Shown: positions 4,727 through 60,135 of the stretch, one piece after another
How positions within the stretch are numbered: position 1 is the stretch's first letter
Layout of the letters: every line of letters begins with the position of its first letter
Origin: an uncultured Tateyamaria sp.
GTDB taxonomy: Bacteria > Pseudomonadota > Alphaproteobacteria > Rhodobacterales > Rhodobacteraceae
Assembly (NCBI GenBank): GCA_947501275.1
Contig: CANMVD010000001.1
Location: 1,054,001-1,118,000, forward strand
Direction of reading: 5' to 3'
Length of the DNA stretch: 64,000 bases
The notes under the pieces: model-generated
What the model was told of the DNA's origin: nothing
Database searches by the model: none
The model's input: the letters and a program-made list of their open reading frames with translations, nothing else
Position numbers and translations under genes: made by a program

Positions 4727-5235
4727 GCGCCGCTCTCCTTCAGCTTTGTGTAGGTGCGTTGCATCTCTGTGTCCATCATCGCCTCCAGAACCGTGCGAAA
4801 GCCCGCCACTGCCTCGGGGCCCGCATCTCGGAAGGCGGCGCGCATACGGGCGCGTTGGGCGTCTGAAAGCCGGGCCTCAAGGTTGCGACCCTCGTCCGTC
4901 AGGTGCAGGTGTCGTTCTCGCTTGTCGGACGTTCCTACGCGGCTTTCGACAAGGCCGTCTTCCATTAACTTGCGCAATACCCTGTTCAGGGATTGCTTGG
5001 TCACACCCAGAATATGCAGCAGGTTGTTGACTGTTGTGCCGGGCGCACGGTTTATGAAGTGAACAGCGCGGTGATGGGCCCGTCCATATGTCAGATCACC
5101 AAGAATGCGATCGGGATCGGCGGTAAAGCCGCGATAGGCAAAGAACATGGCCTCGATGCCTTGGCGCAATTGTTCGTCCGTGAGGTAAAGCAGGCTTTCA
5201 CCACTGCTTGGCCCACTTGTGCGTCCGTCCGCCAT
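4723..5235 (-). CDS. petP: PetP-like MarR-family transcriptional regulator
   Basis: A 170-residue winged-helix regulator. The central part (about residues 55-120) carries the MarR core: GTTVNNLLHILGVTKQSLNR is the recognition region, followed by the wing with the DKRERHLHLTDEG motif. An acidic N-terminal extension mentions no other domain. It is translationally coupled (ATGA) to petR. In Rhodobacter capsulatus the equivalent pair lies next to petABC. Here it is divergent from ilvE, with about 150 bp between the two starts. The ATG at 5235 is preceded by a purine-rich GGGGGCAG. The ligand is unknown. Confidence 0.85.
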   Translation of the reverse strand: MADGRTSGPSSGESLLYLTDEQLRQGIEAMFFAYRGFTADPDRILGDLTYGRAHHRAVHFINRAPGTTVNNLLHILGVTKQSLNRVLRKLMEDGLVESRVGTSDKRERHLHLTDEGRNLEARLSDAQRARMRAAFRDAGPEAVAGFRTVLEAMMDTEMQRTYTKLKESGA

Positions 5236-5384
5236 ACTGCCCCCCTGCGTTGTCCCTTTTGCAGTCAGTTTATGTCAGCCTTGTTGACATTCCAAGAGCG
5301 AAGCGATATCGAATCGCAGGTTTTGCGCAACTTTATGACCGGATCGGAACTATTCGCGCAATATTTGTAAATCAGGAGGGTGCC

Positions 5385-6251
5385 ATGGCTGGCTATGATG
5401 ATCGCGACGGAAAAATCTGGATGGACGGCCAAATGGTCGACTGGCGCAGTGCGAACGTCCATGTCCTGAGCCATGCTATGCATTATGCCAGTTCCGTCTT
5501 TGAGGGGGAGCGCGCGTATAACGGCAGGATCTTCCTCAGCCGGAAACATTCTGAACGGTTGCACTTTTCCGCGGGTGAGCTGGACTTCCAGATCCCCTAC
5601 ACCGTGGATGAAATCGAAGCGGCCAAGCAGGAAGTCCTCACAACCAATGGCCTGACGGATGCGTATGTGCGTGCTGTTGCATGGCGTGGAGCAGGCGAAG
5701 ACATGGGTGTAGCGTCTGCCCGCAACCCGGTTCATCTGGCCATCGCTGCTTGGGAATGGGGCAGCTATTATGGCGACGCCAAGTTTAAAGGTGCCAAGAT
5801 CGACATCGCCAAATGGAAGCGCCCGAGCCCGGAGACCATTCCGGTCCACGCCAAGGCGGCGGGTCTGTACATGATCTGCACAACCTCGAAACATGCGGCT
5901 GAGGCCAAAGGCTGTTCGGACGCTCTGTTCATGGACTACCGCGGCTATGTGGCGGAATGCACGGGCGCGAACATCTTCTTTGTGAAAGATGGCGAGGTGC
6001 ACACGCCCAAGGCGGATGTGTTCCTGAACGGTCTGACGCGCCAAACCGTTATCGGCATGCTCGAAGACAAGCAGATCAAAGTCCACCAGCGTGTGATCAT
6101 GCCCGAAGAGCTTGAAGGGTTTGAGCAATGCTGGCTGACCGGTACGGCAGCCGAAGTGACGCCCGTTGGGCAAATCGCTGACTTCAACTTTGAGGTCGGG
6201 GCCATGGCGCGTGATGTGGCCGAAAGCTACGAGACTTTGGTGCGTGCTTGA
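5385..6251 (+). CDS. ilvE: Branched-chain amino acid aminotransferase
   Basis: PLP-dependent fold-type IV transaminase that interconverts Val, Leu and Ile with their 2-oxo acids. I choose ATG 5385 (MAGYDDRDGKIWMDGQMV), which has an AGGAGG ribosome-binding site 6 bp upstream, giving 288 residues, the normal length; the open frame upstream is not conserved-looking. The PLP lysine should be Lys157 in HAKAAGLY, and the family motif YVAECTGANIFFVKDG follows, then LNGLTRQTVIGM. The next gene starts on the base after its stop. ilvD lies at 55124 in the same window but is not linked. Confidence 0.94.
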   Translation: MAGYDDRDGKIWMDGQMVDWRSANVHVLSHAMHYASSVFEGERAYNGRIFLSRKHSERLHFSAGELDFQIPYTVDEIEAAKQEVLTTNGLTDAYVRAVAWRGAGEDMGVASARNPVHLAIAAWEWGSYYGDAKFKGAKIDIAKWKRPSPETIPVHAKAAGLYMICTTSKHAAEAKGCSDALFMDYRGYVAECTGANIFFVKDGEVHTPKADVFLNGLTRQTVIGMLEDKQIKVHQRVIMPEELEGFEQCWLTGTAAEVTPVGQIADFNFEVGAMARDVAESYETLVRA

Positions 6252-6593
6252 ATGGACTACGCGGCCTTTGCGATTGAGTGGGAGGCCGCGTGGAACTCCC
6301 ACGATCTTGACAGGATCCTGGCCCACTACAGTCCGGAAGTGACCTTTCGTTCACAAAAGGCAATGCGGTCGGTGGGTCAGGGTGAGTTGCGCGGCAAGGA
6401 CGCCTTGCGCGCCTATTGGGCCAAGGCGCTGGAAGCGCAACCGGACCTGTCCTTTGTCGTTGTGGACGTGTTGCGGGGCTACGGGATGCTGGTCATCACC
6501 TACCGCAATCAGCGCAATGTATTGGCGGCAGAGACCTTGCGGTTTGGCCCCGATGGGCTGGTGGTCGAGGCGTCGGCCTGCCACCGGGACTAG
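6252..6593 (+). CDS. NTF2-like / SnoaL-type small protein
   Basis: A 113-residue protein with the typical start of nuclear-transport-factor-2-like alpha+beta cone proteins: an N-terminal helix with WEAAWNSHDLDRILAHYSPEVTFRS, then GKDALRAYWAKALEAQPDLSF and a series of beta strands. Such domains are ligand-binding or small enzymes (isomerases, dehydratases); no activity can be assigned. Its ATG follows directly on the ilvE TGA, so it is presumably co-transcribed. Its stop overlaps the convergent EamA gene by four bases. Confidence 0.82.
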   Translation: MDYAAFAIEWEAAWNSHDLDRILAHYSPEVTFRSQKAMRSVGQGELRGKDALRAYWAKALEAQPDLSFVVVDVLRGYGMLVITYRNQRNVLAAETLRFGPDGLVVEASACHRD

Positions 6594-7531
6594 CCTTTGG
6601 GGTCGGTGACAGACCGTGCGCGGCGGCGTTCCAGTCCCAGTTGCCGCTCCCGCCAGATGATCAGCACACCACCCAGTACGACAAGCGCTGCCCCTTCGAC
6701 CATGGTCAGCGTCGGCAATTCGTCAAAGATGACATAGCCAATCAAGGCTGCAAAAATCAGCGATGCATAGTCAAACGGTGCTAGCATGGATGCTGCCCCG
6801 AAACGGTAACTGGTTGTCACGAGGATTTGCGCCAAACCGCCGATCAGGCCTGCGCCAATCAGCAGCGCAATGTCTGTGGTACTGGGGATGATCCAGCCAA
6901 AGGGCAGGCTGAACAAGCTCAGGACCGTGGCCGTTAGGGAAAAGTAGAACACGATGGCGGCTGTGTGCTCTGTTTTGACCAAGGTGCGGATGTGGATTTG
7001 TACCACCGCCCGCAGAATGGACGCACCCAGCACCATAAGCGCACCAATCGTGCCTGCCGCGCCAAGCATATCCGCATCAAGACTGAGCCGTGGCCACAGC
7101 ACGATCATCACCCCGAACAGCCCCAGACCCACAGCGCCAATCCGGATGAGGCGTATCCGTTCACCCAGCATGATCGCGGCCAAAATAACGGTGAAGATCG
7201 GCGTGGCATAGCCGATGGCCGTCACCTCGGGCAGCGGCAGCAGTGCCAACCCGCCAAAGGTCAAGGCCATGGCAGAGGTGCCGAACAAACCACGCCAGAC
7301 ATGGCCCAGAAAGTTGTTCGGAATGAGAGCTTCGCGGATTTCACCCTTTTGCCAGATCCAGGCAAGGATAATGGGCAAGGCAAAGAGCGAGCGGAAAAAC
7401 ACAGCCTCGCCCGCCGGGACTTCATCGGTGGCTGCCTTGATCATGGCAGCCATCACCATGAACAGGAAAACCGCCACCAGCTTGAGCATGATGGCGGTGG
7501 AGGGTTTGTTGGCGATCGAGGGCTGTTGCAT
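6590..7531 (-). CDS. EamA/RhaT-family (DMT superfamily) exporter
   Basis: Inner-membrane transporter of 313 residues with two EamA repeats of about five transmembrane helices each (residues 15-150 and 160-300). Typical features are the first helix LKLVAVFLFMVMAAMIKAA, the FFRSLFALPIILAWIW segment and LPEVTAIGYATPIFTVILAAIMLGE, a hallmark of repeat 1. The second repeat has FAALIGYVIFDELPTLTMVEGAALVVLGGVLIIW. DMT members export amino acids, metabolites or drugs; the substrate is not predictable. Transcribed alone, convergent with the NTF2-like gene. Confidence 0.9.
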   Translation of the reverse strand: MQQPSIANKPSTAIMLKLVAVFLFMVMAAMIKAATDEVPAGEAVFFRSLFALPIILAWIWQKGEIREALIPNNFLGHVWRGLFGTSAMALTFGGLALLPLPEVTAIGYATPIFTVILAAIMLGERIRLIRIGAVGLGLFGVMIVLWPRLSLDADMLGAAGTIGALMVLGASILRAVVQIHIRTLVKTEHTAAIVFYFSLTATVLSLFSLPFGWIIPSTTDIALLIGAGLIGGLAQILVTTSYRFGAASMLAPFDYASLIFAALIGYVIFDELPTLTMVEGAALVVLGGVLIIWRERQLGLERRRARSVTDPKG

Positions 7532-18727: not shown

Positions 18728-19975
18728 TCAGGCCTGCAGTTGGCTGTCTGATCGTCCCTTGATCGTTGTCGTGACGATCTGCCCTTCTGACTGAGCGGTG
18801 CCAAAGGTGACTTCGCTGAATTGCTCCGTCCGCCCCATGTGCGCGTTTTCCATCAACACATGATGCATCCTGCCGACCTGCGCGGCGAGGTGGGTTGCGA
18901 CTTGCGCGTCACCAGCGGCCCGCAATCGGGCGGCCCGTTCCTTGATTGCGGTTCCGTTGACCTGGGGCATTTTGGCCGCTGGAGTACCGGTGCGTATCGA
19001 GTACGGGAAGACGTGCAACCACGTGAGATGGCACTCCGTCACCAGTTTGAGCGAATTGTCGAAATGTGCGTCTGTTTCCGTGGGGAACCCTGCAATGATG
19101 TCTGCACCAAAGGTCATGTCCGGCCGCAGCTTGCGTGCCTCTTCCGTAAAGCGGATGGCATCATCACGCAGGTGCCGCCGCTTCATCCGTTTCAGGATCA
19201 GGTCGTCGCCGTGTTGCAGGCTAAGGTGCAGGTGCGGCATCAGGCGCGGCTCGGTTGCGATGGCTTGCATCAGGGCTGCATCAACTTCGATCGAGTCTAT
19301 TGAACTGATCCGCAGCCTTGGTAGATCCGGCACGAGCTTGAGGATGCGCAGCACCAGATCCCCAAGTTGTGGCGTTGCGGGCAGGTCCGCCCCCCACGAC
19401 GTCATGTCGACCCCTGTCAGCACCACTTCGTTAAAGCCGCGGTCCACCAGCCGTTTGATCTGTTCTACCACCACTCCCGCAGGGACGGAGCGCGAATTGC
19501 CGCGGCCATAGGGAATGATGCAGAATGTACAGCGGTGATCGCAGCCGTTTTGCACCTGCACATACGCGCGGCTGCGGGTGCCGAAACCGTCGATCAAGTG
19601 TCCGGCTGTTTCCGTCACTGACATGATGTCGTTGACCTGCACCGGTTCTGTGCCAAAGTTGCCCGCCAACCCGGCCCACGTGTCGCTTTGCATCTTTTCG
19701 GTGTTGCCGATGACCGCGTCGACCTCGTCCATGTTTGCAAAGGTGTCGGGTTCGGTCTGCGCTGCACAGCCGGTCACGATCAGTTTGGCGTCCGGGTGGG
19801 TGCGGCGCAGTTTTCGAATGTCCTGACGGGCCTTGCGCACAGCCTCCGCAGTGACCGCGCAGGTGTTTACAACGACCGCGTTTTGCAGACCTGCGCCTGC
19901 GGCCAATTCCTCCATCGCCTTGGTTTCATAAGCGTTGAGGCGGCAGCCGTGGTTAGAGAAGACGGGCGGTTTCAT
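18728..19975 (-). CDS. mtaB: tRNA (t6A37) methylthiotransferase
   Basis: Radical-SAM enzyme that converts t6A37 to ms2t6A37 in ANN-decoding tRNAs. 415 residues with the MTTase N-terminal domain (Cys in HGCRLNAYE, NTCAV and TGCAAQ, binding one Fe-S cluster), the radical SAM CDHRCTFC motif at about residues 146-153, IPYGRGNSRS and the LTGVDMTSWG segment. The MtaB subtype is favoured by the short TRAM-like C-terminal tail and the NHGCRLNAYE start. Its ATG overlaps the dapF stop (ATGA). Confidence 0.93.
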   Translation of the reverse strand: MKPPVFSNHGCRLNAYETKAMEELAAGAGLQNAVVVNTCAVTAEAVRKARQDIRKLRRTHPDAKLIVTGCAAQTEPDTFANMDEVDAVIGNTEKMQSDTWAGLAGNFGTEPVQVNDIMSVTETAGHLIDGFGTRSRAYVQVQNGCDHRCTFCIIPYGRGNSRSVPAGVVVEQIKRLVDRGFNEVVLTGVDMTSWGADLPATPQLGDLVLRILKLVPDLPRLRISSIDSIEVDAALMQAIATEPRLMPHLHLSLQHGDDLILKRMKRRHLRDDAIRFTEEARKLRPDMTFGADIIAGFPTETDAHFDNSLKLVTECHLTWLHVFPYSIRTGTPAAKMPQVNGTAIKERAARLRAAGDAQVATHLAAQVGRMHHVLMENAHMGRTEQFSEVTFGTAQSEGQIVTTTIKGRSDSQLQA

Positions 19976-20802
19976 AACCCGTCAAGGAAGCTTTGAGTCA
20001 GGACACCGTCAAACACATGCGCTGTGGGCCCGGACATCCAGACGCCATCCTCGCGCCAATCGATGTACAGCGTGCCGCCATCCAGATCGATTTGCACCTT
20101 GCGCCCGGTCAGTCCACGGCGATGCGCAGCCACAGCAGTGGCGCAAGAGGACGAGCCCGAAGCCAGAGTGACCCCCGTGCCGCGTTCCCAGACACGCATG
20201 CGCAGATGGTCTTGCCCGATCAGTTGGGCGAACTGGACGTTGGTGCGTTCGGGGTAAAGAGGATGGTGCTCAATGTGCGAACCACGGTGCTGGAGGTCGA
20301 CCCCAGCCACATCATCGACAAAGAAAGTGCAGTGCGGATTGCCCATGCCTGTAGCCACGGGATCACCCTCAATGGGTAAGTGCAGTGTGTCCATCTCTTG
20401 CGCCAACGGCACGCCTGCCCAGTCCAGTTGCGGGTGCCCCATGTTGACGGCTGTAACCCCGTCTGCGGCTGTCACAGCATGTAATGTGCCCCGTCCTGTG
20501 ACGGCGATGTCGAGAGACTTTGCCCCTGTCAGCGCCATCTCGCGCGCGGCAATGCAGCGGGTTGCGTTGCCGCAAGCAGACGAGTGGGATCCATCTGCAT
20601 TGTAGAACGTGATTGTCAGATCTGTGCCATCCGAGATGACGGCCAACTGGTCAAACCCCACGCCGCGATGCCGATCTGCCAGTGCAACGGCCAAATCAGG
20701 TGTCACAGAAGCGTCGGATATACGGGTATCAATCACGACAAAGTCGTTCCCAAGCCCGTGCATCTTCATGAAGGGCCAACCAGAGGCGGCAATCTGTTGC
20801 AT
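19972..20802 (-). CDS. dapF: Diaminopimelate epimerase
   Basis: Interconverts LL- and meso-diaminopimelate for lysine and peptidoglycan synthesis without cofactors. With ATG 20802 (MQQIAASGWPFMKMHGLGNDF) the protein has 276 residues, matching the family; ATG 20811 is a possible alternative, while the first in-frame ATG at 20856 adds an unlikely tail. The two catalytic Cys are in SHSSACGNATRC and SGSSSCATAVAAH. Coupled to mtaB by an ATGA overlap. The tRNA-Lys gene lies about 110 bp upstream on the other strand. Confidence 0.94.
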   Translation of the reverse strand: MQQIAASGWPFMKMHGLGNDFVVIDTRISDASVTPDLAVALADRHRGVGFDQLAVISDGTDLTITFYNADGSHSSACGNATRCIAAREMALTGAKSLDIAVTGRGTLHAVTAADGVTAVNMGHPQLDWAGVPLAQEMDTLHLPIEGDPVATGMGNPHCTFFVDDVAGVDLQHRGSHIEHHPLYPERTNVQFAQLIGQDHLRMRVWERGTGVTLASGSSSCATAVAAHRRGLTGRKVQIDLDGGTLYIDWREDGVWMSGPTAHVFDGVLTQSFLDGL

Positions 20803-20908
20803 CCCGGGCATATAACGCTGGGGTTTGTGGGAATCCAGTATGTCGCAGGAAATCATATGAGAATCGTCTTGACCCTGCGCCGCACCCTTTCTAGATAGGC
20901 CGCCAGTG

Positions 20909-20984
20909 GGGCCGTTAGCTCAGTTGGTAGAGCAGCTGACTTTTAATCAGCGGGTCGCAGGTTCGAACCCTGCACGGCTCACCA
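20909..20984 (+). tRNA. tRNA-Lys (anticodon UUU), CCA encoded
   Basis: A full cloverleaf: acceptor 5' GGGCCGT pairs with ACGGCTC (one G-U), D-arm AGCTCAGTTGGTAGAGC, anticodon arm CTGACTTTTAATCAG with anticodon TTT, variable loop GGGTC, T-arm GCAGGTTCGAACCCTGC, then encoded CCA. The sequence after it changes character, so the gene may be an integration site. Confidence 0.97.
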
Positions 20985-21493: not shown

Positions 21494-21832
21494 TCACTTC
21501 GCTTTCTTGTAGCCTTCTCGTTGCAACTGCCGCACCAGCTTCCTGAAATTTTTCGATCCGCCTTCTGAAAATGGATGTCCATATGCAGTAACTGGTCCTT
21601 TCTTGACTGGCTTTTTGAATGTGCCATCTTCGAAAAAGACTTCATTGAGAACCCAGACACCCAAAGTATCCAGAGCGGACTTTGACTCATTGATTGGCTG
21701 GCTAAAGCATCCACCAGTGTTGCACCAAACGGCGACATTATTCCCATCAGGATCGACCATCCAGCGCTCACCAGCAAACGACGCGGATGTGGTCACTACC
21801 AACGCTGTAACAGCATAAATTGAATTTCTCAT
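21494..21832 (-). CDS. Small secreted hypothetical protein
   Basis: A 112-residue frame from ATG 21832 with a good signal peptide (MRNSIYAVTALVVTTSASFA, cleavage before GERWMVDPDG). The mature part is about 90 residues, with two Cys in VWCNTGGCFSQ that could form a disulfide, and a basic C-terminal end (RKLVRQLQREGYKKAK). AGGG lies about 8 bp before the ATG. I recognise no domain. It sits between the tRNA-linked stretch and an IS3 remnant, in AT-rich surroundings, so it is probably accessory. Confidence 0.6.
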   Translation of the reverse strand: MRNSIYAVTALVVTTSASFAGERWMVDPDGNNVAVWCNTGGCFSQPINESKSALDTLGVWVLNEVFFEDGTFKKPVKKGPVTAYGHPFSEGGSKNFRKLVRQLQREGYKKAK

Positions 21833-21862
21833 AATTCGTACCCTGCATTTTGTTTGTGGCAC

Positions 21863-22321
21863 TTACCGCCTTGGTTTCTGCATATCCTTGCCGCTCTTCG
21901 AGCAAGTTTCACAATGGTCAATGTCAATCCGATCACAGCACCTGTCTAGTACTTCCACATAATTTTCAGCTCGCTGTTGCGCCCTTTGCATCCGCCGACT
22001 TAAGTTCGTTCGGTTCAGGTTTTGGACGTCCTTTGACCGGTTCGCATATCCGTGTGGCGTCAATCCAGCGAGGTTGGAGTGAGGCCGGTGGTGAGTGTAG
22101 TCGGTGCGCCATGCCGCAATCGTGCGGCAGGCAGGGCGCAGAGACGGGAACAGGTGTTCGTGTCGGCATTCCTCGCGCATCCTTGCGTTGAAGCTTTCGA
22201 CCAAGCCGTTCCGCATCGGCTTGCCGGGTGCGATGCAGTGCCAAGCAACTTGTCGATCTTCCTGCCATTTCAGCATCGCGTTCGATCCGTGCCGTAGCAC
22301 GTCAGGAAGACGCGCTGTCAT
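21863..22321 (-). pseudogene. IS3-family transposase orfB, 3' fragment
   Basis: A 152-codon frame whose first half is the C-terminal end of an IS3/IS407-type DDE transposase: SNAMLKWQEDRQVAWHCIAPG, KPMRNGLVESFNARMREECR with the last catalytic Glu in VESFN, and WRTDYTHHRPHSNLAGLTPHGY. The N-terminal catalytic part with both Asp residues is missing. The codons after KDVQNLNRT are not transposase-like and probably read into flanking DNA. Confidence 0.85.
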
Positions 22322-22324
22322 TGA

Positions 22325-22456
22325 TTATGGCCGCCATTTGCAGAACGTCGCATCACTGATCCCATCCTTGCGACACAGCTCCTTCGCACCAAGCCCGGCC
22401 TGATGCTCTTTCAAGATGCCCATGATCTTGTCTTCGCCAAAACGGTTTCTCTACAT
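22325..22456 (-). pseudogene. IS3-family orfA fragment with a stop at codon 2
   Basis: Read from ATG 22456 this gives M, stop, RNRFGEDKIMGILKEHQAGLGAKELCRKDGISDATFCKWRP, stop. That is the helix-turn-helix start of IS3-family OrfA (KRNRF..EQIIGILKEH..G). The TAG at codon 2 is where the family has a Lys codon, so one substitution killed it. The sequence stops at KWR, where the deletion into orfB begins. Confidence 0.85.
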
Positions 22457-22504
22457 CGCTTGCCTCCTCAGCTGGAGTACAGGTCAAACAAAAATCCGGA
22501 CATT

Positions 22505-24259
22505 TCAGGGCAGAAGGGCAAGGTCTACCGCTACTTTGGCTGTCCCATTGGCGGAAACGGCTGCGTTCAGCGTGTTGTCATCCAGCCAGAATGTTTCCAG
22601 CCGCAGATCGTTCAACGCGACACTAAGATCGGCAGAGCCATCAGGTGTTTGGACTTGCAGGTTGCTGAGTGCATTGATGATTTCGCTAAAGTGCGAATCG
22701 ACCTCAAATCGCATGAAGGGTGCCAATGCTTGTTCCAAAGCGCCTTCGGCATACCAGCTGACCCTGCGCACGACGTCTTCGCTGCTTTCGACGTCCAGTT
22801 TGAGATCATCGAGCACGATCACATTGTTGGCTTTGTCAAAGACCGGACGGGCAGTCACATAAAGTTCGACAGAGACCCGCAAGAAGCTGACCCCTTTGAG
22901 CCGGATGCCAAGCACCAGCCGTTGTCCGTTTTGATAAGCCCGTACGGACAGGTCGCCAAAGCGCAAACCGGGCGCTTTTTCCGCTAGGAAATCCTGAATG
23001 GCCTTGTTTGCTGTTGCTTCGACAACATCCAGCGGCACATGGGCCGTGGGCACCACGTGAAAGCCACCGAAGGTCGAATTGTCGACGCGGACATTGACCT
23101 GCGTTTTGGAAACGGGCGGTTTGGTCAGCATCAGCTGCGGTTTTGAGGTGAAACCGCCGGCCACGCGCACAATGTTCCGTCTGCCATCGGGTGCGTGGAC
23201 CCGCGGAGACACCAGCATCTCTTGCGCATTTACGCCGATCCAGACCGGCGGTGTGGTGGGCAGGGCAATCGGCGCGGCCAGCAAGGTACGGGCCTGTGCC
23301 AACGCTGCGGCCACCGCTTCGCTGGCGACAGGTTCTTCGGTCGCGCTGTCCACAGCCCCAACCAGCGCACTTCTGAGTGCAGGTGTGAGTGCCTGCCCAA
23401 TCCCGGATTTGAACAGCGCGCTGAGACCGTCAAGGTCGATATGATTGAAGAAGCCCAGCGAACACGCACCCCTGTCCAGGTCAAATGAGACTGGCCCAAT
23501 CTCGGGCGATATGAACAGCTCATCATCCTTCACCGCGACTGATATCGTGGCCCGTGTCTTGACGCGAACAGGGACAGAACACTTCTGGGCACTGATCCAG
23601 TCAAAGTCCCGCAAGGCGCGCCCTTGCGCCTGCAGCTGGATGTGGGCAGTACTCGTGGTCGCAATGTCAAAGCCACCATTGGCGGCGCCAGAGATCGACA
23701 GTTTTCTCAGGTTTACGGAGTAAGCGAGTTCCGGAACGGGCGAAATTTCGTCGATGACCTGATCCAGACCGGTACATTCGACGGTATTGACGACAACATC
23801 TCGGGCGACGCGCATGACGCGCCCGCCAGTATTGTTCCATGCGCATTCGCCGACGCGCCCGATATCTTCCAGGATATTGCCGCTGAAGGCTTTACACGGC
23901 ACTTCCTCGATCACGCGTTCGACAACCGTGACGGGGTTACACCGACGCGCATCTGCTGGCAGATCAATGAGTCCAAAGACGGCTTCGGTGATCAACTTTG
24001 TCGACGTGCCGCTGACCAGTGGCTTGGCCTTGAGGGTGGTCTCAACAAGATTGGCCAAAGCAGCGGCTTGGAGGTCCACAGGCACAAAAACGGTAGAGAC
24101 AGGCACATCAACGGCCATGTTTTCGGGTGCGAACTCGGGCGGCGCGTCAGGCGCTATGCGCAGCGCCATGCCAGCCACGAAGTAGAGCACGGCCCCGAGT
24201 GACGGCACGCCGCCGACCCAGATTACGCGCTTGCGGGTGAAGCGGAAGGGGAGTTTCAT
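22505..24259 (-). CDS. DUF4403-family membrane-anchored protein (operon gene 4)
   Basis: 584 residues from ATG 24259 (MKLPFRFTRKRVIWVGGVPS), which overlaps the previous stop as ATGA; the longer frame to 24379 runs through the upstream gene. A basic N-terminus and one hydrophobic segment (about residues 12-33) anchor the protein, with the remainder probably periplasmic. The body fits DUF4403: VPVSTVFVPVDLQAAALANLVE at the start, VNLRKLSISGAANGGFDIATT, repeated long beta strands, and a second half beginning WIGVNAQEMLVSPRV. DUF4403 has been discussed as a possible tubular lipid-binding (TULIP-like) fold; I cannot test that here. Four Cys lie in residues about 105-165. Last gene of the four-gene operon; an IS terminus lies 2 bp after its stop. 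Confidence 0.75.
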   Translation of the reverse strand: MKLPFRFTRKRVIWVGGVPSLGAVLYFVAGMALRIAPDAPPEFAPENMAVDVPVSTVFVPVDLQAAALANLVETTLKAKPLVSGTSTKLITEAVFGLIDLPADARRCNPVTVVERVIEEVPCKAFSGNILEDIGRVGECAWNNTGGRVMRVARDVVVNTVECTGLDQVIDEISPVPELAYSVNLRKLSISGAANGGFDIATTSTAHIQLQAQGRALRDFDWISAQKCSVPVRVKTRATISVAVKDDELFISPEIGPVSFDLDRGACSLGFFNHIDLDGLSALFKSGIGQALTPALRSALVGAVDSATEEPVASEAVAAALAQARTLLAAPIALPTTPPVWIGVNAQEMLVSPRVHAPDGRRNIVRVAGGFTSKPQLMLTKPPVSKTQVNVRVDNSTFGGFHVVPTAHVPLDVVEATANKAIQDFLAEKAPGLRFGDLSVRAYQNGQRLVLGIRLKGVSFLRVSVELYVTARPVFDKANNVIVLDDLKLDVESSEDVVRRVSWYAEGALEQALAPFMRFEVDSHFSEIINALSNLQVQTPDGSADLSVALNDLRLETFWLDDNTLNAAVSANGTAKVAVDLALLP

Positions 24260-25569
24260 ATCGCCTCCACCATTGCGAGGGGCAGGCGGCATTCCGAGGC
24301 AATGTCGGACAGGTCTGCGTCCTTGACCTGCTTGAGTGTGCGCGCATGTTCGCGTTGCAGCGGCAACGCGCTGGCCCAAGCTGCAATTTCGTTGCGTTCT
24401 TTGCCGTGTTGCGCCGCGAGATCTCCGATGTCCGCTCCAGCGGCGAGCTGTGTCTTGGCTTCAAGTTCGGCACGCAGGTCTTGGAGCGCGGCGGTACGCA
24501 GGATCAGCGCATTGGCGAGGGTATCAAGGGCGAGATCTCCTTCGACTTCCTCCCAACTGTCCGAGAGTTTGGGATCCAGCATTTCCTCGATCTCGTCATA
24601 GGTGCCTTGGGGGATGCCGATCTGTTCGAGGATCGCCTCTTCCTCCATTCCGCGCACGTAGGCATCGCGGGCGTTCACCACAGTCGAAATTTCGCTAACC
24701 TGTGCTTCGCTCAGGCCAGTTTCCGTGACGACCAATGACAGTGTGCTGCCTCCGGCGATCAGAACTTCTGCTTTGAGACGGTCGGCGATGCTGCTCAGCA
24801 GATCTTCCGTCATCCCGTCTACAAGTGTCAGGATCACGCTGTGTTCCAGCCCTGCACGCAGCATCTTGCGCCCAACGCTCATCGCGACCTTTTGGCGGCC
24901 CAGATCCACTATGGCAAGGTTCAGCTTTTCGACATAGGCCGGAACCGTACCGACGCCTGCCTCTGCCAGTAGATCGCGGCGTTGACTAAAGGCGGAGGCC
25001 TTTGCCGCTTCGAGCTTTTCTACTTCGCGCCCGGCTTGCTTGGAGGCCGCATTGGCCTCTGCAATCACTGCGCGCAGGTCGTCGTTCACGATCCGTGCCT
25101 GTGCTTCGTTCCACACCAACATCACCGCCTCAAGAGCGAGGGCGACGGGCCCAGTGAATTTGGCAAAGCGTACCAGTTTGAAGGCTTTGCTGGCCTTGGC
25201 GAATTTAGCAACCTTGCCCGTACCCGAGGCCATGTTCATGTAGACGGCAAAGTTGGCAACCATTGACGCAGCCATAGGCGCCGTGGTCAGCCACAGGATA
25301 TTCTTGACGACGCCGACTGGTGAGGTTTCGGCAAACAGGATCGCCAAGGCGTCTTTTTCCACATCACCGGTCTCCGGCAATACAAGGTCCATCTGTTGGC
25401 GCATCAGGCCACCGACAAAGGCCAACTTGGCCTCCATCAGATCCAGATCGCCCACGATCTCGCGGTAGGCGTCATAGGTTTCGGTGTATAGTCGAGAATG
25501 TGCGTCGATCTCGGCTTTCTTGATATTCAAATCGGCCAAGAGATCGTCTGTCTTAAATGATTCTAACAT
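24256..25569 (-). CDS. Unknown helical protein with two hydrophobic segments (operon gene 3)
   Basis: 437 residues, no signal peptide, and no family I recognise. Residues 1-60 are predicted helical by eye (heptad-like, charged). Hydrophobic segments lie at about 87-113 (VVKNILWLTTAPMAASMVANF onward) and 137-153 (FTGPVALALEAVMLVWN), separated by a Lys/Ala-rich linker (GKVAKFAKASKAFKLVRFAK). A long charged coiled-coil-like part follows (155-230), then helical C-terminal modules with short Gly-turn motifs (EQIGIPQGTYDEIEEML; SDIASECRLPLAMVEAI). The layout (helix, paired hydrophobic segments, helix bundle) matches gene 1 of the same operon and recalls alpha-helical pore-forming proteins, but that is inference. 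Starts 2 bp after gene 2 ends. Confidence 0.7.
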   Translation of the reverse strand: MLESFKTDDLLADLNIKKAEIDAHSRLYTETYDAYREIVGDLDLMEAKLAFVGGLMRQQMDLVLPETGDVEKDALAILFAETSPVGVVKNILWLTTAPMAASMVANFAVYMNMASGTGKVAKFAKASKAFKLVRFAKFTGPVALALEAVMLVWNEAQARIVNDDLRAVIAEANAASKQAGREVEKLEAAKASAFSQRRDLLAEAGVGTVPAYVEKLNLAIVDLGRQKVAMSVGRKMLRAGLEHSVILTLVDGMTEDLLSSIADRLKAEVLIAGGSTLSLVVTETGLSEAQVSEISTVVNARDAYVRGMEEEAILEQIGIPQGTYDEIEEMLDPKLSDSWEEVEGDLALDTLANALILRTAALQDLRAELEAKTQLAAGADIGDLAAQHGKERNEIAAWASALPLQREHARTLKQVKDADLSDIASECRLPLAMVEAI

Positions 25570-25571
25570 AT

Positions 25572-26588
25572 CTATGCCTCCGTCGCGGCTGCGGAATATT
25601 GCAGCGCGTTGGTGATGAAATCAGCGGACCAGCCTGTTATTTCCGCAATCGTTTCGGCGTCGAGCCCCTGTTCGACCAGACTCTGCACCAAGTCACGTTG
25701 TGCGTTGGTCTTGGTCTCTTCGAGCAATTGGGTGCTGACGCTGCCGCCCTCGCCAAATTCAGCGCGCAATGCCGCTGACTTGGCGACGAGCACCGCTGTT
25801 TCATTGCGTGCGGTGTCAGATTGACTTTGGACGTGATGCGTCGCGTCGCGTATGCTCTTTGCGGCTCTGTCCAATATGGCCTGATGGTCCTCTATGTTTT
25901 CAAAGTAGTTGATGAATTTGCGCCCGGTGACGAGGTCGAGCAGGCTTTGCGGTTCGAAGAACTCGATAAAGGTCTTGTCGTCGCGGAGCCGGTCGGGAAA
26001 AGACTCCGCCCCGTGACTTGGTCCCACGATTGCAATTCCGCCATGACCCCGATTGTTCTGCGTGAACTCCTCGGACAGCTTTTCGTATTCCATGCGGGCA
26101 GTGAGGTAGGTTGAGCGATCTTCGGCAAAGACGGCGTAGGCGGCGCGAAACTGCGCAAGTGCAGTTTCGTAGGCTTTCAGCTCGTCCTTTACAGCGAAAT
26201 CGTAGTCCACTTTTTCGCGGACTGGATTGACGATGTGTTCCGCAATGGGGTCAACCAAATAGTCCCCAACAGCGCCAACGACGGGTTCGACCACGTGCTT
26301 TCCAACCGGCTTCACGACGTGCTCCCCAACGGCCTTGATCGTTGGGTCGACCACGTGTTCTCCAACGGGTTTCACAACGTGTTGGTCCACTGCATCAACC
26401 GCCGGCGCGACCACATGTTCGCCAACGGGCTTCACGATATGATCATCGACGGCACTGACAACGGGATCGACCACATGCTCTGCGACGGGGTCGATGACGG
26501 CTTCCTTGACCGGTTTCAAGACGGCCTTTTCGACCGGCTTGAATACCTTTTTCTTGATGAAACCGCCGATGTTACCAAACAGTCCCAT
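25572..26588 (-). CDS. Unknown protein with 20-residue tandem repeats (operon gene 2)
   Basis: 338 residues. The first 10 residues (MGLFGNIGGF) are amphipathic and are followed by a repeat region at about 12-127. From residue 31 to 110 it is four exact-length 20-residue units of the form VVKPVGEHVVDPxxxAVxxH, with a fifth partial unit after. Prolines recur at 8- and 12-residue intervals and His is frequent. The rest (130-338) is charged and helical, with a Gly-rich break at 180-195 (RGHGGIAIVGPSHG), and ends in a short helix-turn-helix-like motif (LDAETIAEITGWSADFITNAL). No signal peptide or clear membrane helix. The start codon overlaps the gene 1 stop (TGATG). Not a family I recognise. Confidence 0.7.
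   Translation of the reverse strand: MGLFGNIGGFIKKKVFKPVEKAVLKPVKEAVIDPVAEHVVDPVVSAVDDHIVKPVGEHVVAPAVDAVDQHVVKPVGEHVVDPTIKAVGEHVVKPVGKHVVEPVVGAVGDYLVDPIAEHIVNPVREKVDYDFAVKDELKAYETALAQFRAAYAVFAEDRSTYLTARMEYEKLSEEFTQNNRGHGGIAIVGPSHGAESFPDRLRDDKTFIEFFEPQSLLDLVTGRKFINYFENIEDHQAILDRAAKSIRDATHHVQSQSDTARNETAVLVAKSAALRAEFGEGGSVSTQLLEETKTNAQRDLVQSLVEQGLDAETIAEITGWSADFITNALQYSAAATEA
26259..26498 (-). repeat. Four in-frame 60-bp tandem repeats within operon gene 2
   Basis: Codes for residues 31-50, 51-70, 71-90 and 91-110 of gene 2. Each unit is exactly 60 bp and the encoded pattern is [VI]V[KD]PV[GA][EK]HVV.P...AV..[HY]. Nucleotide identity between units is high at the KPVGEHVV core (plus strand CCAACGGG or similar followed by CTTCACGA). 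A partial fifth unit runs to about 26208. A degenerate earlier unit (residues 11-30) has the same 8-residue proline spacing. Confidence 0.85.
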
Positions 26589-27661
26589 CAGTCTTCCACC
26601 AGTGCGCAGATCTTGCTGCCTTCGGTGCCTTGGATCTGCGCCTGAATGTCTGCGGCACGCAAAAGCTTGAGCCCGGTGAGGTTGGCCACCGTGCCTGCGG
26701 ACGCGCTGTTGTCGCGGCAGAAGATGCGGGCGGCAGTCGTGACTTTGCTGGCATGTTTGCCGGTTTCGACCGACGCATCAGAAAGCCGAACCTTGAGCAA
26801 TTCGAGATTGTCATCCGAAATCGCGTCGGGGTCATCCACAGTTGTGATGCCCAGCAGGCCCATCATCTGGCGCAGATCGTTTTCCATGGACGAGACACCG
26901 CCCGAAAGCGCGTCGTAGCTGTCGCGGGTTTCGTCATACCAGTTCTGGAAATTGAACACGCTGCTTTCCAGAAAATCGCGGCGGGCGATTTCGTTCTGGA
27001 TCGTGGCATAGATGCCAAGCCCCGCGCCAACCACACCGGCAACAGCGCCAACCACGCCAAGGCCTTTGAGCACGCGGGCTTTGCCCAACTTACCCAGCTT
27101 GTCCCAACGCTGTTTGGGGATCACCTGACCTTTGTAATTGGTGATCATTTTGGCCGAGTGACGGGTGAATTTGGCCTTGGACGCTTTCCAACCCTGGTAG
27201 GAGGTGTAAACGCCAACCCCAGCTGCAACACCACCTACTCCGACGCCGCCCCACATGATTGCCTGAGACATTTTTGCGGCCAGTTCGGCATTTTCGCCTT
27301 CGAGTGAGAAGAACGAGAATTCGTCTTGCAACTGGAACTCCGGCAACACAGCCTTGATGCTTTGGCTGAGTGTCGACAGCACATCCAGCGCCGAGAACAT
27401 CGCGACATAGTCGGTAAACAATGTGTTGAAACGGTCCAGCATATAGTCGTGGTGCTCGGACAGGTTTTCTCCTGCGGTCCGGTATTCATCCAGCTTCTTG
27501 GACAGCGTATCGGAAGAGGCGTCCGCAATCTGATCCATGTTGTCGACACCAGCGTCGACGTCTCCGATGCGTGTGACATCGGCAATGGGTGTGCTGGGTT
27601 CCTCGGTTGCGAGCGACAGAATTTCGGCAATATCCGACTGGTCCATGGCCAACTGGTTCAT
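26588..27661 (-). CDS. Unknown helical protein with Gly-rich hydrophobic pair (operon gene 1)
   Basis: 357 residues from ATG 27661, with AAGGAG 7 bp upstream. No signal peptide and no family I recognise. Residues 45-110 look like long helices (DTLSKKLDEYRTAGENLSEHHDYMLDRF...). Two Gly/Val/Ala-rich hydrophobic segments follow: 134-152 (AIMWGGVGVGGVAAGVGVY) and 198-221 (LKGLGVVGAVAGVVGAGLGIY), joined by a basic 45-residue linker (KASKAKFTRHSAKMITNYKG...). The C-terminal third is helical (DETRDSYDALSGGVSSMENDLRQMM). This resembles the head-hairpin arrangement of alpha-helical pore-forming proteins, by shape only. First gene of a four-gene unit with overlapping or near-overlapping frames. Confidence 0.72.
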   Translation of the reverse strand: MNQLAMDQSDIAEILSLATEEPSTPIADVTRIGDVDAGVDNMDQIADASSDTLSKKLDEYRTAGENLSEHHDYMLDRFNTLFTDYVAMFSALDVLSTLSQSIKAVLPEFQLQDEFSFFSLEGENAELAAKMSQAIMWGGVGVGGVAAGVGVYTSYQGWKASKAKFTRHSAKMITNYKGQVIPKQRWDKLGKLGKARVLKGLGVVGAVAGVVGAGLGIYATIQNEIARRDFLESSVFNFQNWYDETRDSYDALSGGVSSMENDLRQMMGLLGITTVDDPDAISDDNLELLKVRLSDASVETGKHASKVTTAARIFCRDNSASAGTVANLTGLKLLRAADIQAQIQGTEGSKICALVED

Positions 27662-27709: not shown

Positions 27710-28429
27710 TTATCCGCCGGGTCGTCGTCGTAATAGGGTAAGCGCGCCAAAGGCGAAGGCTAGCAGGGGCAGTGATGCCGGGAGTGGAACGGCAGATGGA
27801 TCCTGTGGTGGCGTTGGTGCTGAAAATGCAATGTTGTCGTAGCGGCCTGTGAGGATACGGCCATCGTTGTAGGCGTTTGTCGCGATCCCGAACAAAATAT
27901 CCTGACCGATGAAACGGGTCAGATCCACGGACACGCCGGTGTCAAAGAATGTATCACTTGGGCTTGTGGTGGTGGCGATGGCAGCGGCCACGGGGTTGCC
28001 CCCAAACGGGTCCACGCCGCCCCCACCCGTGAGCAGGGCAAAGACAGGAATGTAGTTGAAACTGGAATCGAAGATGAAAAAGGTAATGTTGTCCTGAAAC
28101 GCGCTGCCGGCTCCGATCAACTGGTCCGCACTGTCTTCGATCAGTGAGGTGTCGAAGGTCAGCAACGACGTGGCGGATGTGACCGTTGTGCTTTGCATGA
28201 TGGACGTCTGGCTTAGCCCGTCGGCAACCGACCCGGTTGTTGTCTCGAAAAACGAATTGCCGCCAGTGCTCTGCACGCCTGCGAATGTATCAAAGGGCAC
28301 GCCGCTTGGGCCCGAGATGTCTGTGGTGTAGCCGCTTAGGTCTCCGGTTTCGAAATCGCCGTTCACAACGGCGGCAGAAACAGGGCTGGCCAACAGCGCA
28401 AGCGCAAGGAAAAGGGATCGTGTCATCAC
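27710..28429 (-). CDS. Secreted VPLPA-CTERM sorted protein
   Basis: 239 residues. An N-terminal signal peptide (MMTRSLFLALALLASPVSA) is followed by a beta-rich domain beginning VVNGDFETGDLSGYTTDISG, a common opening in exported CTERM proteins. The C-terminus is a sorting tag: VPLPASLPLLAFAFGALTLLRRR, i.e. the VPLPA motif, a hydrophobic helix and an Arg cluster. Such proteins are processed by an exosortase-type system and sent to the surface or exopolymer. It lies 48 bp upstream of the four-gene unit on the same strand and may be co-transcribed; a GGCGGATTATCCGCC palindrome overlaps its stop (27705-27719). Confidence 0.85.
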   Translation of the reverse strand: MMTRSLFLALALLASPVSAAVVNGDFETGDLSGYTTDISGPSGVPFDTFAGVQSTGGNSFFETTTGSVADGLSQTSIMQSTTVTSATSLLTFDTSLIEDSADQLIGAGSAFQDNITFFIFDSSFNYIPVFALLTGGGGVDPFGGNPVAAAIATTTSPSDTFFDTGVSVDLTRFIGQDILFGIATNAYNDGRILTGRYDNIAFSAPTPPQDPSAVPLPASLPLLAFAFGALTLLRRRPGG

Positions 28430-28491: not shown

Positions 28492-28511
28492 AATCAGGTG
28501 ATCACCTGATT
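28492..28511. promoter_or_regulatory. Perfect 20-bp palindrome upstream of the VPLPA gene
   Basis: AATCAGGTGATCACCTGATT is fully self-complementary. It lies 63-82 bp upstream of the VPLPA start and touches the histidine kinase stop codon. It lacks a T-run on either side, which argues against a simple terminator, and has the size of a dimeric-regulator operator (LuxR-type boxes are also about 20 bp). Low certainty on function. Confidence 0.5.
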
Positions 28512-30453
28512 ATGCGCTCAGCCAGACTTGCATGACAGTTCCATTGGGTTTTTGCAGCATTGTAAACCGACCGCCATGTTCGCAAGCCAGCGCATGCACG
28601 ATCGAAAGCCCCAAGCCAGTGCCGCTGTTTGCAGGCACGTTTTGGCTCTCGTCAGGTCGGACCAGTTGTCCGGCAATTGCGGCCTGAAATGTCTCTTGGC
28701 TGAGGCCGGGGCCGGTATCGTGTACCTCGATGCGCAGACCACCATCGCGCCGTACACCCACGACCACGCCGCCATTGTCCGTCATGCGGATGGCGTTTGA
28801 CACCAGATTGGCCACGATACGCATCATAGCGAGGGGCGGTATTGTTGTTGTCAGGCTTGAGGGGATGACCGCCAGTCTCAGTCCGCGGGCTTGCGCATCT
28901 GCGATGAACATGTCGTTTACGGCCTTCAGCGTGTCCCCGATCATGGTCGGTGCAAGATCGTTTTTCTCTTTGAGCGCGTGTGTCAGTTCGTCGGACACCA
29001 GCCGTTCGAGATAAGTCAGCGTGTTTTCGACTTCGGCAATTGCGTCTGCCCCTGTGCCTTGGTCTGACAGCGAGCGTATGTTCAGTCGAAGCGCAACCAG
29101 CGGCTGGCGCAGGTCGTGCACCGTGTCTGTCAGGGATTGTCGCCGTTGCAGTCCCAGTGCTTCGGTACGTTCCATCTGGTCTTCGAGAGCGTGCAGGCGT
29201 TGCGTGAGGCTGACGGCCCGTTGCGCCTGTTCCAGCGATTGCTCCAGCGCGGTTTCATGTGCTTTTCGCAGCTGGTTGATCCGGTCCATGATCGCAAGGC
29301 CCATGAGGATCGCGTCCACCACCAGTACAGCGCGCATGGAGTCAAATTGGACTTCCTGCGAGATTTCGACCCCGAACCAGTGGCGCAAGGTCATCAGCAC
29401 ACTTGATATCAGCGCCCCGCTCCATGCAATGACGTAGAAGCGGACCTCGCGAAAGCGGGTCCGCGCGGCCAGAAACCCTGCCAAGGCGACAAGGAGTGTT
29501 GTCACCATCGCCAGTACGATCAGGTATTTCTTGATCGGTTGTGCATCGGCAAATGCTGTTGCAGCAAAGAGGGCCAGTCCGACCACACACAGGCTGAGAA
29601 GCAGACGGTCCATGAGCGGATGGTAGACTTTGGTCTGCAGGAACATGCGGGCAAAGGTAGCTGCGCTGAGGATCAGCCCAAGGCCGGTGGGCACCGTGGC
29701 GAAGGCGTTGAAGCGCGGGTTGTTCGGCCACAGATACTGAAATGTCGTGCCATCGGCATGGGCCAGAAACAGCAGGGCTGACAGCATGTAGGCACCGTAA
29801 GCGGCAAAGACGCCGCGCCGCGTTGTGACTGCCGCCAAGGACGCCCCCACAATGAGGATCGTAACCATCCCGTAGAACACAAAGTTCTTTGATGTGCGCC
29901 GGGCTGTCCAGTCGTTGAAGGCCTGTGCGGACAGAATGCGCCACGTGATTTCGGCAGAGCCACCGGAGTAGAAGGCCACATAGACGGTCGCCTGCGCACC
30001 GGGTTCGAGCCTAAAGCCGCTGGTAAGCTGCGGGTAGTCTATGGCGCGTGACGGGTAAGGGGAGGTTTCGTCCTGTTTTTCCAACTGGATCGAGGTGCCA
30101 TCCTGCCGGATCAGGTAGACCTCGAACCGCTGGAAAAAGTTCTCGTCCACGGCAAGGCGCCATGCATCCGCGTTGCTGTCGTTTCTGACATCGAACCGGA
30201 GCCAGTTCATCGCCTTGGTGTAGCCAAAATCGGCGACGTTGCCTCCGAGTGGTGTGAAGGTTTGCACGGTCATGTCCGCGAGTGTGGCCGTGCCGTGCAT
30301 GTCCTGTTTGAAGCTGACGAATGGTGCGATATCTTCCCAGTCGGTGATCTCGGATCCGAGAGTCAGGACGTTGCCTTGCTGGGCGCTGACTTGTAGCGTC
30401 ACGCAGAAGAAAACCAACAGAGCAGTTAGATGCCTGCGCAGAGGGGATGTCAC
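28510..30453 (-). CDS. 7TMR-DISM sensor histidine kinase
   Basis: Membrane histidine kinase. I prefer GTG 30453 (MTSPLRRHLTALLVFFCVTLQVSA, a signal peptide), giving 647 residues; ATG 30480 adds nine residues and would overlap the divergent regulator's start. Residues about 30-185 form the extracellular 7TMR-DISMED2-like domain, next come seven hydrophobic helices (about 190-390, with VFAAYGAYMLSALLFLAHADG), then a coiled coil, the phosphorylation helix with His in TVHDLRQPLVALRLNIRSL, and the ATPase domain with NLVSNAIRM (N box), DTGPGLS and GTGLGLSIVHAL (G boxes). The pair with the LuxR-type regulator forms a two-component system of unknown signal. Confidence 0.9.
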   Translation of the reverse strand: MTSPLRRHLTALLVFFCVTLQVSAQQGNVLTLGSEITDWEDIAPFVSFKQDMHGTATLADMTVQTFTPLGGNVADFGYTKAMNWLRFDVRNDSNADAWRLAVDENFFQRFEVYLIRQDGTSIQLEKQDETSPYPSRAIDYPQLTSGFRLEPGAQATVYVAFYSGGSAEITWRILSAQAFNDWTARRTSKNFVFYGMVTILIVGASLAAVTTRRGVFAAYGAYMLSALLFLAHADGTTFQYLWPNNPRFNAFATVPTGLGLILSAATFARMFLQTKVYHPLMDRLLLSLCVVGLALFAATAFADAQPIKKYLIVLAMVTTLLVALAGFLAARTRFREVRFYVIAWSGALISSVLMTLRHWFGVEISQEVQFDSMRAVLVVDAILMGLAIMDRINQLRKAHETALEQSLEQAQRAVSLTQRLHALEDQMERTEALGLQRRQSLTDTVHDLRQPLVALRLNIRSLSDQGTGADAIAEVENTLTYLERLVSDELTHALKEKNDLAPTMIGDTLKAVNDMFIADAQARGLRLAVIPSSLTTTIPPLAMMRIVANLVSNAIRMTDNGGVVVGVRRDGGLRIEVHDTGPGLSQETFQAAIAGQLVRPDESQNVPANSGTGLGLSIVHALACEHGGRFTMLQKPNGTVMQVWLSA

Positions 30454-30478
30454 TGAATTGACCCAAAAGACGGCCAGC

Positions 30479-31102
30479 ATGGGCGCCTGCATCTCCGTAC
30501 TTATTGCTGACGACCATGCCTTTACCCTGTTGGGCTTGCAACAAAGATTGCAATCGGATGCCCGCTTTGACGTTGTGGCGACGGCGCATGATGGTGTGGA
30601 TGCGATTGCCTTGGCGCGTACCCATGCGCCGGACGTGGCGCTGATCGATTTTGCGATGCCCGGCGCCAATGGCCTTGAGGCGCTGATCGAGATCAAGCGT
30701 TGGGCGCCTGCGACCCGTGTTGCCGTCCTGACGGCGCGTGATGACGTGGCGACCCTGACGGGTCTGAAGAACGCGGGCGCTGCTGGCGTACTGAGCAAGG
30801 CAGAATCGCCCGAGATCACGCTGGAACATGTCGCGCGCATTGGTGCGGGCAAGGTCGTTTATTCCGATGCGTTTGTGGCGTTGATCGAGACAAGTGCGTC
30901 TGCGGTCACGCTGACATCTCGTGAAACCGAAGTGTTGATCCGCGTCGCCAAGGGCATGAGCAACCCTGCTATTGCGGATGAGTTGGGCCTGTCCCCCAAA
31001 ACGGTAGAGAGTCACCGGGGTTCATTGATGCGCAAGCTGGAGGTCAACACGACCGCCACCTTGCTGTTGCGCGCCGCAAAAGAGGGCTTGATCGATTTTT
31101 AA
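30479..31102 (+). CDS. LuxR/FixJ-type response regulator
   Basis: 207 residues from ATG 30479 (MGACISVLIADDHAFTLLGLQ). The receiver domain (1-120) has DD near residues 10-11, the acceptor Asp in DVALIDFAMPGANG (about residue 54), and the switch Thr/Ala in VLTARDD. The C-terminal LuxR HTH (about 145-205) contains LTSRETEVLIRVAKGMSNPAIADELGLSPKTVESHRGSLMRKL. It is divergent from its probable kinase with only about 25 bp (or an overlap) between the starts, and its stop overlaps the convergent tctA stop. Confidence 0.92.
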   Translation: MGACISVLIADDHAFTLLGLQQRLQSDARFDVVATAHDGVDAIALARTHAPDVALIDFAMPGANGLEALIEIKRWAPATRVAVLTARDDVATLTGLKNAGAAGVLSKAESPEITLEHVARIGAGKVVYSDAFVALIETSASAVTLTSRETEVLIRVAKGMSNPAIADELGLSPKTVESHRGSLMRKLEVNTTATLLLRAAKEGLIDF

Positions 31103-56887: not shown

Positions 56888-57054
56888 TTGGCCTCTCCCT
56901 AAAGCGTTGCGGACCGGAATAGCCATTGCTCCGCGCCCCTGCAAGCACCGCGGCGGTTGTAATGGCGCTTGCGCAGCCATAGGTTGGCGAAACGGCGCAA
57001 ACTGGGGTGCATTATCAACCCCATGACATGTTGTGCCGCCGATCGGGACACGCC

Positions 57055-60000: not shown

Positions 60001-60135
60001 AACGATACCGCAGTGTTGTTGAGCTTGTTGAAAACCGTTGGCGGATATCTGAGCGGTGCAGCCGAGCTTATGCGCAAGGCCAATGTCACCATTCCGCAAG
60101 ATGAGGGACCACCGCCCCCTCCGCTTGACCGATGA
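57055..60135 (+). CDS. ABC-exporter-like protein with degenerate ATPase and cyclic-nucleotide-binding domain
   Basis: 1026 residues from ATG 57055 ([20 protein letters not shown]). Residues about 1-325 form a type I exporter membrane domain. The nucleotide-binding domain follows but its motifs are lost: the P-loop position reads [13 protein letters not shown] (about 378-391), the signature position reads [15 protein letters not shown] (about 775-789), Walker B ends LVLDKAL with Lys for Glu, and the H-loop is [10 protein letters not shown]. About 300 extra residues are inserted between the two halves of the domain (roughly 435-720). Residues about 860-1000 form a cyclic-nucleotide-binding domain ([35 protein letters not shown]). 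ATP hydrolysis looks impossible, so a regulatory or structural role is likely. Coupled to the CPBP gene (ATGA). Confidence 0.85.

Follow-up and report, generated by a model that had tools for sequence, protein, structure and literature searches.

A conserved five-gene accessory cassette of envelope-type partners and three orphan proteins in an uncultured Tateyamaria sp.

Results

Gene Organization and Conservation of the Cassette

We analyzed a 64,000-bp stretch of the genome of an uncultured marine Tateyamaria sp. (contig CANMVD010000001.1, positions 1,054,001 to 1,118,000 of the forward strand; hereafter the window), in which five minus-strand genes lie side by side. The safest statement is that they form a conserved accessory cassette, composed of envelope partners and three orphan proteins. 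From upstream to downstream the genes are as follows (aa, amino acids; ORF, open reading frame):

Gene 5, 27710-28429, minus strand: N-terminal hydrophobic segment (signal-peptide-type) and a tail resembling VPLPA-CTERM sorting signals; kept along with the rest of the cassette
Gene 1, 26588-27661, minus strand: 357 aa; head made of hydrophobic segment 134-152, cationic stretch 153-202 and hydrophobic segment 203-221, with a heptad-like stretch after it
Gene 2, 25572-26588, minus strand: 338 aa; 11 hVVxP units, then a heptad-like stretch
Gene 3, 24256-25569, minus strand: 437 aa; membrane-insertion-like head made of hydrophobic segment 91-109, cationic stretch 110-134 and hydrophobic segment 135-153; long C-terminal part
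Gene 4, 22505-24259, minus strand: 584 aa; ATG at 24259 within the ORF 22505-24379; DUF4403, predicted TULIP

An earlier note, made from the letters of the window alone, had described genes 1-4 as tightly packed, and the ORFs and junctions were found as it described them: genes 1 and 2 have one base in common (TGATG), genes 2 and 3 are separated by a 2-base gap, and genes 3 and 4 overlap by ATGA. The spacing from gene 5 to gene 1 is 48 bases. Two features are absent from that note, gene 5 and a tRNA-Lys bounding a variable region (see below). Its proposal of one conserved unit holds in that the same gene order was found in a second genus, but the unit comprises five genes rather than four, gene 5 (27710-28429) having been missed.

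The entire block recurs in one other genus, in the genome of an uncultured Pelagimonas sp. (G186, contig CANMPP010000007.1, locus L005), where gene 5 and genes 1, 2, 3 and 4 follow each other on a single strand, in the order and orientation of the window. The junctions of this copy are an 8-base gap between genes 1 and 2 and, taking the fitting ATG, ATGA overlaps between genes 2 and 3 and between genes 3 and 4. Protein identity between the two copies was 46% for gene 5 and 49, 36, 43, and 44% for genes 1 to 4, respectively. Across the five genes, 61-71% of second codon positions but only 31-37% of third positions are identical, which suggests that all five proteins have long been kept by selection. 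The co-occurrence of genes 1-4 in other genomes, which the earlier note had proposed as a check, was observed in Pelagimonas, the only further genome found.

The genome samples searched overlap and were drawn from larger groups, and further copies of the cassette may exist. Gene 1 was found in 2 of 295 genomes of the family, gene 4 in 2 of 203 and full-length gene 5 in 2 of 198, in each case the source genome (G000) and G186. For gene 3, one of 101 relatives matched, namely the source genome itself, with 0 of 19 congeners and no match entry for G186 in that search. The gene 1 profile matched one of 390 genomes of the order and one of 121 genomes around G186; run over genome contigs, in a scan that relies on short peptide patterns, it gave one relative (Pelagimonas G186) among 142 candidate stretches. 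The gene 3 profile matched 27 of 349 phylum genomes up to an E-value of 1. Up to 0.001 only the source genome was matched, and the remaining 26 matches were short pieces with a best E-value of 0.0025.

The five might also be unrelated genes that hitch-hike in a variable region and form no functional unit; only two copies are known, and both lie near mobile-element remnants or a reverse-transcriptase gene. This explanation is largely refuted by the conserved order and appears very improbable: the junctions overlap, all five genes are constrained at the protein level, and within the family samples gene 1, gene 4 and full-length gene 5 were each found in no genome other than the two with the cassette. 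We conclude that the five genes very probably constitute one functional unit. We saw no description of the five-gene cassette in the publications examined from literature searches on DUF4403, VPLPA-CTERM and Roseobacter pore-forming proteins.

Hydrophobic-Cationic-Hydrophobic Heads of Genes 1 and 3

The earlier note had recognized no family for genes 1-3 and, consistent with this, none of the three products reached a Pfam or NCBIfam cut-off. All Pfam matches were sub-threshold; in NCBIfam, up to an E-value of 1, genes 1 and 3 gave no match and gene 2 gave two matches far below the cut-off. Nothing convincing was found for the three proteins in PADLOC or PHROGs. None of them has an N-terminal hydrophobic segment, in agreement with the lack of signal peptides that had been noted.

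The paired hydrophobic segments reported for genes 1 and 3 were detected in both: each protein carries two segments of ∼19 residues that flank a loop, with a weak third segment at residues 269-287 of the gene 3 product. The paired segments are moderately hydrophobic in both proteins and glycine-rich in gene 1. The loops are strongly biased in charge, with K/R to D/E counts of 13 to 1 in gene 1 and 6 to 0 in gene 3 (13 to 1 and 7 to 0 in the respective Pelagimonas relatives), and the flanks are acidic. The longest acid-free stretch spans 60 residues in gene 1 and 65 residues each in gene 3 and the two relatives. In 2000 composition-preserving shuffles this length was reached 8 times for gene 1, twice for its relative, and once each for gene 3 and its relative; the same test gave 746-1711 of 2000 for gene 2, gene 4, gene 5 and their relatives. 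This null is weak in that any protein with two neighbouring hydrophobic segments beats it, and we therefore added a second control based on loops between neighbouring hydrophobic segments. The control set consisted of 60 loops of 20-60 residues, taken from 131 other ORFs of at least 200 aa that were called mechanically in the window and in the stretches of six congeners and do not all represent genes. None of the 60 loops had at least six K/R with at most one D/E, and none reached a net charge of +6. The loop control leaves the odds of the readings weighed below unchanged.

The note had also taken genes 1 and 3 for related partners, which was not borne out: comparison by hhalign gave a probability of 0.2%. 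Judged from their sequences, the two proteins appear to be built to one design though they are not detectably related. The heptad-like stretch after the gene 1 head was reached by 2 of 200 shuffles (6 of 200 for the relative) and stands at the matching place in the relative. Gene 3 shows no such stretch (45 of 200 shuffles; 10 of 200 for the relative). The sole structure model obtained, that of gene 1, had a mean pLDDT of 43.8, and its structural matches were at noise level. Gene 3 matched designed PPR/alpha-solenoid chains in the PDB (E-values of 1.3e-9, 6.8e-5, and 0.02); these matches were made up of several weak stretches, none of which passes alone, and were not taken as homology.

An ordinary hairpin anchor whose two ends stay in the cytoplasm would need to pass such a cationic loop through the inner membrane, which the positive-inside rule disfavours. 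Together with the lack of an N-terminal export signal, this suggests that the two proteins are soluble first and inserted later. It is somewhat more probable than otherwise, on these features, that the heads of genes 1 and 3 insert into a membrane.

Repeat Protein Encoded by Gene 2

The 20-residue repeats attributed to gene 2 correspond to 11 units fitting the pattern hVVxP, which are spaced 8 or 12 residues apart, i.e., 20 per pair. At the DNA level the repeat is a 60-nt direct repeat, with three copies reported. The Pelagimonas relative has four such units, and the repeat number thus seems to be free. No hydrophobic segment over the threshold used was found in the gene 2 product. Its heptad-like stretch was reached by 4 of 200 shuffles (0 of 200 for the relative) and also lies at the matching place in the relative. 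The gene 2 repeats resemble the sequence of a long hypothetical protein that is encoded on a plasmid of Streptococcus equinus (L018:349-3399; tblastn E-value of 7e-11), probably by composition.

DUF4403 Protein Encoded by Gene 4

The assignment of gene 4 to DUF4403 was confirmed with a score of 86.8 bits against PF14356 (cut-off 28.3; 87.9 bits in the genome search). The match covers profile positions 177-425 of 425 and residues 327-578 of the protein, i.e., the C-terminal half; the length of gene 4 would allow for the N-terminal half, which is unmatched. The relation of DUF4403 to TULIP folds mentioned in the earlier note is a prediction in print: the family is predicted to form a two-domain TULIP like BPI, with a lipoprotein signal in 66% of cases, according to the part of the source consulted (PMC6791001). 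In contrast to this majority, the N-terminal hydrophobic segment of gene 4 (residues 12-39) has no cysteine, and an inner-membrane anchor is therefore more likely, in line with the membrane anchoring that had been proposed. The DUF4403 gene of a class member (G456, locus L035) differs in its setting: it has a lipobox-like start and lies, by eye, among sucA/sucB/lpd-like genes, whereas gene 4 lies in the cassette.

Gene 5 and the Exosortase System

The gene 5 product has an N-terminal hydrophobic segment and, in its tail, a VPLPA motif, a hydrophobic stretch and arginines. Against TIGR03370 it scored 25.3 bits, narrowly missing the cut-off of 25.35, and the Pelagimonas relative scored 13.6; the VPLPA motif, hydrophobic stretch and arginine are visible in both copies. 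The exosortase XrtD (TIGR04152) was over its cut-off in both cassette genomes. Gene 5 thus resembles PEP-CTERM/VPLPA-CTERM exosortase targets in its N-terminal segment, its tail features and the XrtD of its genome, and it differs from them in that the full-length protein was found only in the two cassette genomes among the 198 searched. In seven more family genomes the match to the gene 5 profile was limited to its C-terminal portion, extending at most over positions 126-245. The Pelagimonas copy has no clear start codon before its hydrophobic N-terminal segment (L005:12690-12790).

Two of the five products resemble proteins of the envelope, and the cassette might serve the envelope of its own cell. 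Genes 1-3 would then form a hairpin-anchored scaffold in the cytoplasm or at the inner membrane, which together with the gene 4 TULIP protein moves or supplies lipid so that the exosortase-processed gene 5 product can be presented at the surface; neither a pore nor a target cell would be involved. XrtD in both cassette genomes fits this explanation, as does the suggestion, in the part of a study on other bacteria that we cite, that PEP-CTERM proteins stabilize the tie between the cell surface and extracellular polysaccharide (PMC12188702). Two observations speak against it. Tails like that of gene 5 occur in the seven other family genomes without the rest of gene 5, so that the tails are not tied to the cassette; and the cationic loops of genes 1 and 3, unlike all 60 control loops, disfavour ordinary hairpin anchoring. 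On balance, a lipid and surface-display machine of the cell's own envelope is doubtful in itself, yet almost as likely as the membrane-inserting assembly considered in the Discussion.

Variable Region Behind tRNA-Lys

Two further features mark the downstream side of the cassette:

tRNA-Lys (TTT), 20909-20984, plus strand: similarity to congeners breaks off at the 3' end, which is probably the edge of the variable region
IS3-family transposase remnant, 21863-22505, minus strand: adjoins gene 4 on its downstream side; the ORF 21863-22321 contains the rve_3 part

The tRNA-Lys adjoins dapF (19972-20856), which was present in all 20 genus genomes searched. Six of the 19 congeners were compared at this locus, as 19.5-kb stretches, and the tRNA-Lys follows dapF in all six. 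In five of the six, DNA similarity between the window and the congener ends with the tRNA itself, at 20984; in the remaining one it runs 12 bases further, to 20996. The first scanned genes behind the tRNA-Lys vary among the six stretches, and tblastn (E-value of 1e-8) detected no cassette gene in any of them. In congener G018 (locus L028) a phage-type integrase gene begins ∼100 bases behind the tRNA-Lys, and 14.6 kb further on the tRNA end recurs as a 46-base sequence with 98% identity (L028:4000-18621). The stop in similarity at the tRNA end and the integrase element of G018 show that integration takes place at this tRNA end in the genus.

The cassette therefore sits in a variable (accessory) region behind tRNA-Lys. 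The accessory character that the earlier note had assigned to the locus agrees with this stop in similarity and with the absence of gene 3 from the 19 congeners. No second exact copy of at least 12 bases of the tRNA plus its 26-base flank was found in the 64-kb window, and no phage-type integrase was detected among 26 window proteins scanned with Pfam (a subset of the ORFs); we accordingly claim an accessory region at an integration site and not a complete island. Plasmid IS3 records match the remnant beside gene 4 in two pieces, up to position 22510.

Among the neighbouring genes, a small ORF of 122 aa (21494-21862), which matches no Pfam family and whose start resembles a signal peptide by eye, lies between the tRNA-Lys and the IS3 remnant. 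A 7TMR-DISM histidine kinase gene is found just upstream of gene 5 (28510-30852). It had no match in the 19 congeners (E-value of 1e-60) or at the Pelagimonas locus (E-value of 1e-8), and we regard it as accessory and outside the cassette. Further along the window, 57007-60135 encodes a 1042-aa protein with ABC transporter membrane, ATPase and cyclic-nucleotide-binding domains. At the Pelagimonas locus, the region downstream of the cassette contains a reverse-transcriptase gene (RVT_1) and, by eye, resolvase-like and TniB-like pieces (L005:3070-4215 and 5208-6733).

The location at a tRNA-Lys integration site, and the reverse-transcriptase gene ∼2.9 kb downstream of the Pelagimonas copy, would both suit an anti-phage cargo of a tRNA island, in which the hairpin proteins permeabilize the cell's own membrane after infection and gene 2, gene 4 and gene 5 act as sensor or control. 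No convincing PADLOC match was obtained for any of the five proteins, however (the best was AbiP on gene 1, E-value of 0.016), and it would be unusual for such a system to include a TULIP protein and a surface protein sorted by an exosortase. We consider an anti-phage role improbable.

Discussion

The reading that we favour, at a probability of roughly 35%, is that of a horizontally moving five-gene envelope cassette, in which a three-component alpha-helical membrane-inserting (pore-type) system is joined by a surface protein and by a TULIP protein that binds lipids. The earlier note had combined genes 1-4 into one membrane-acting assembly; this stands in part, as the conserved accessory unit and the TULIP assignment were upheld and the kinship of genes 1 and 3 was not.

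The closest parallel is with the tripartite alpha-pore-forming toxins (alpha-PFTs) of the ClyA family (AhlABC, SmhABC, Hbl/Nhe and MakABE). As in those systems, three adjacent genes encode probably helical products, one of which lacks the hydrophobic head that the other two have. Of the Ahl components, B and C have hydrophobic heads and A is predicted to be amphipathic; AhlB has two hydrophobic helical ends of 39 Å, and lysines delimit the head of AhlC, as described in the cited part of that work (PMC6602965). At the sequence level only, genes 1 and 3 and both of their relatives also share the placement of a hydrophobic head between flanking parts of the chain. The ClyA-family fold is a five-helix bundle into which the membrane-active head is inserted, as given in the cited part of PMC6162564. 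The mak operon likewise has extra genes beside its three components, MakC and MakD, but in the cited part of that source these are cytosolic, in contrast to the TULIP and exosortase-type partners of the cassette (PMC11484084). These two envelope partners are not named in those parts of the literature on tripartite pore systems that we examined.

The differences from the ClyA family are that there is no sequence match, that the gene 1 tip is long (50 residues) and strongly cationic, and that the cassette is not known to be toxic. Searches of PDB sequences with the gene 1 and gene 3 profiles gave no match to ClyA-family members up to an E-value of 5, and the Pfam/NCBIfam scans gave none up to 1; these libraries presumably hold ClyA-type families. 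Because sequence searches often fail to connect one member of this divergent family with another, the lack of a match does not decide against membership. We do not class the cassette in the ClyA family because there is no sequence match and the gene 1 model is too poor. A further parallel is offered by the OrfX/P47 clusters of clostridia, in which TULIP-type proteins are encoded beside toxin genes, according to the cited portions of two studies (PMC7020563; TULIP nature of P47/OrfX2, PMC6791001). They belong to other families, and the comparison is a parallel only, for which no sequence link was looked for.

In the proposed mechanism of the membrane-inserting system, the gene 1 and gene 3 products would be synthesized in soluble form, lacking an export signal, and each would keep its hairpin head hidden until assembly with the partners, when the head would insert into a membrane. 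The head-less gene 2 product may be the third helical component or an adaptor. The exosortase-sorted gene 5 product could mark or bind a surface, either that of the cell itself or that of a target. The gene 4 TULIP protein would sit at the inner membrane, facing the periplasm, and is predicted to bind lipids; it might feed the assembly or protect the producer's own membrane. That the outcome is a pore or another permeabilizing assembly is a tentative proposal, as probable as the combined reading and no more, and action on another cell seems unlikely.

More broadly, the cassette might represent an envelope apparatus of a new kind that is transferred as a unit, in which helical hairpin inserters, a repeat adaptor, a periplasmic TULIP protein that binds lipids and an exosortase-sorted surface protein tie the entry of cytoplasmic proteins into a membrane to the handling of lipids and to display at the surface; we put this forward as a speculative possibility, less likely than not to hold. 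If our reading of the cassette is right, it would link the open roles of bacterial DUF4403 TULIP proteins and of cassette-specific exosortase targets, and it would provide a small set of fixed partners for both, open to expression and deletion. Marine bacteria of the Roseobacter type would also be added to the range of alpha-helical membrane-inserting systems, through proteins that have no detectable sequence relation to the known ones.
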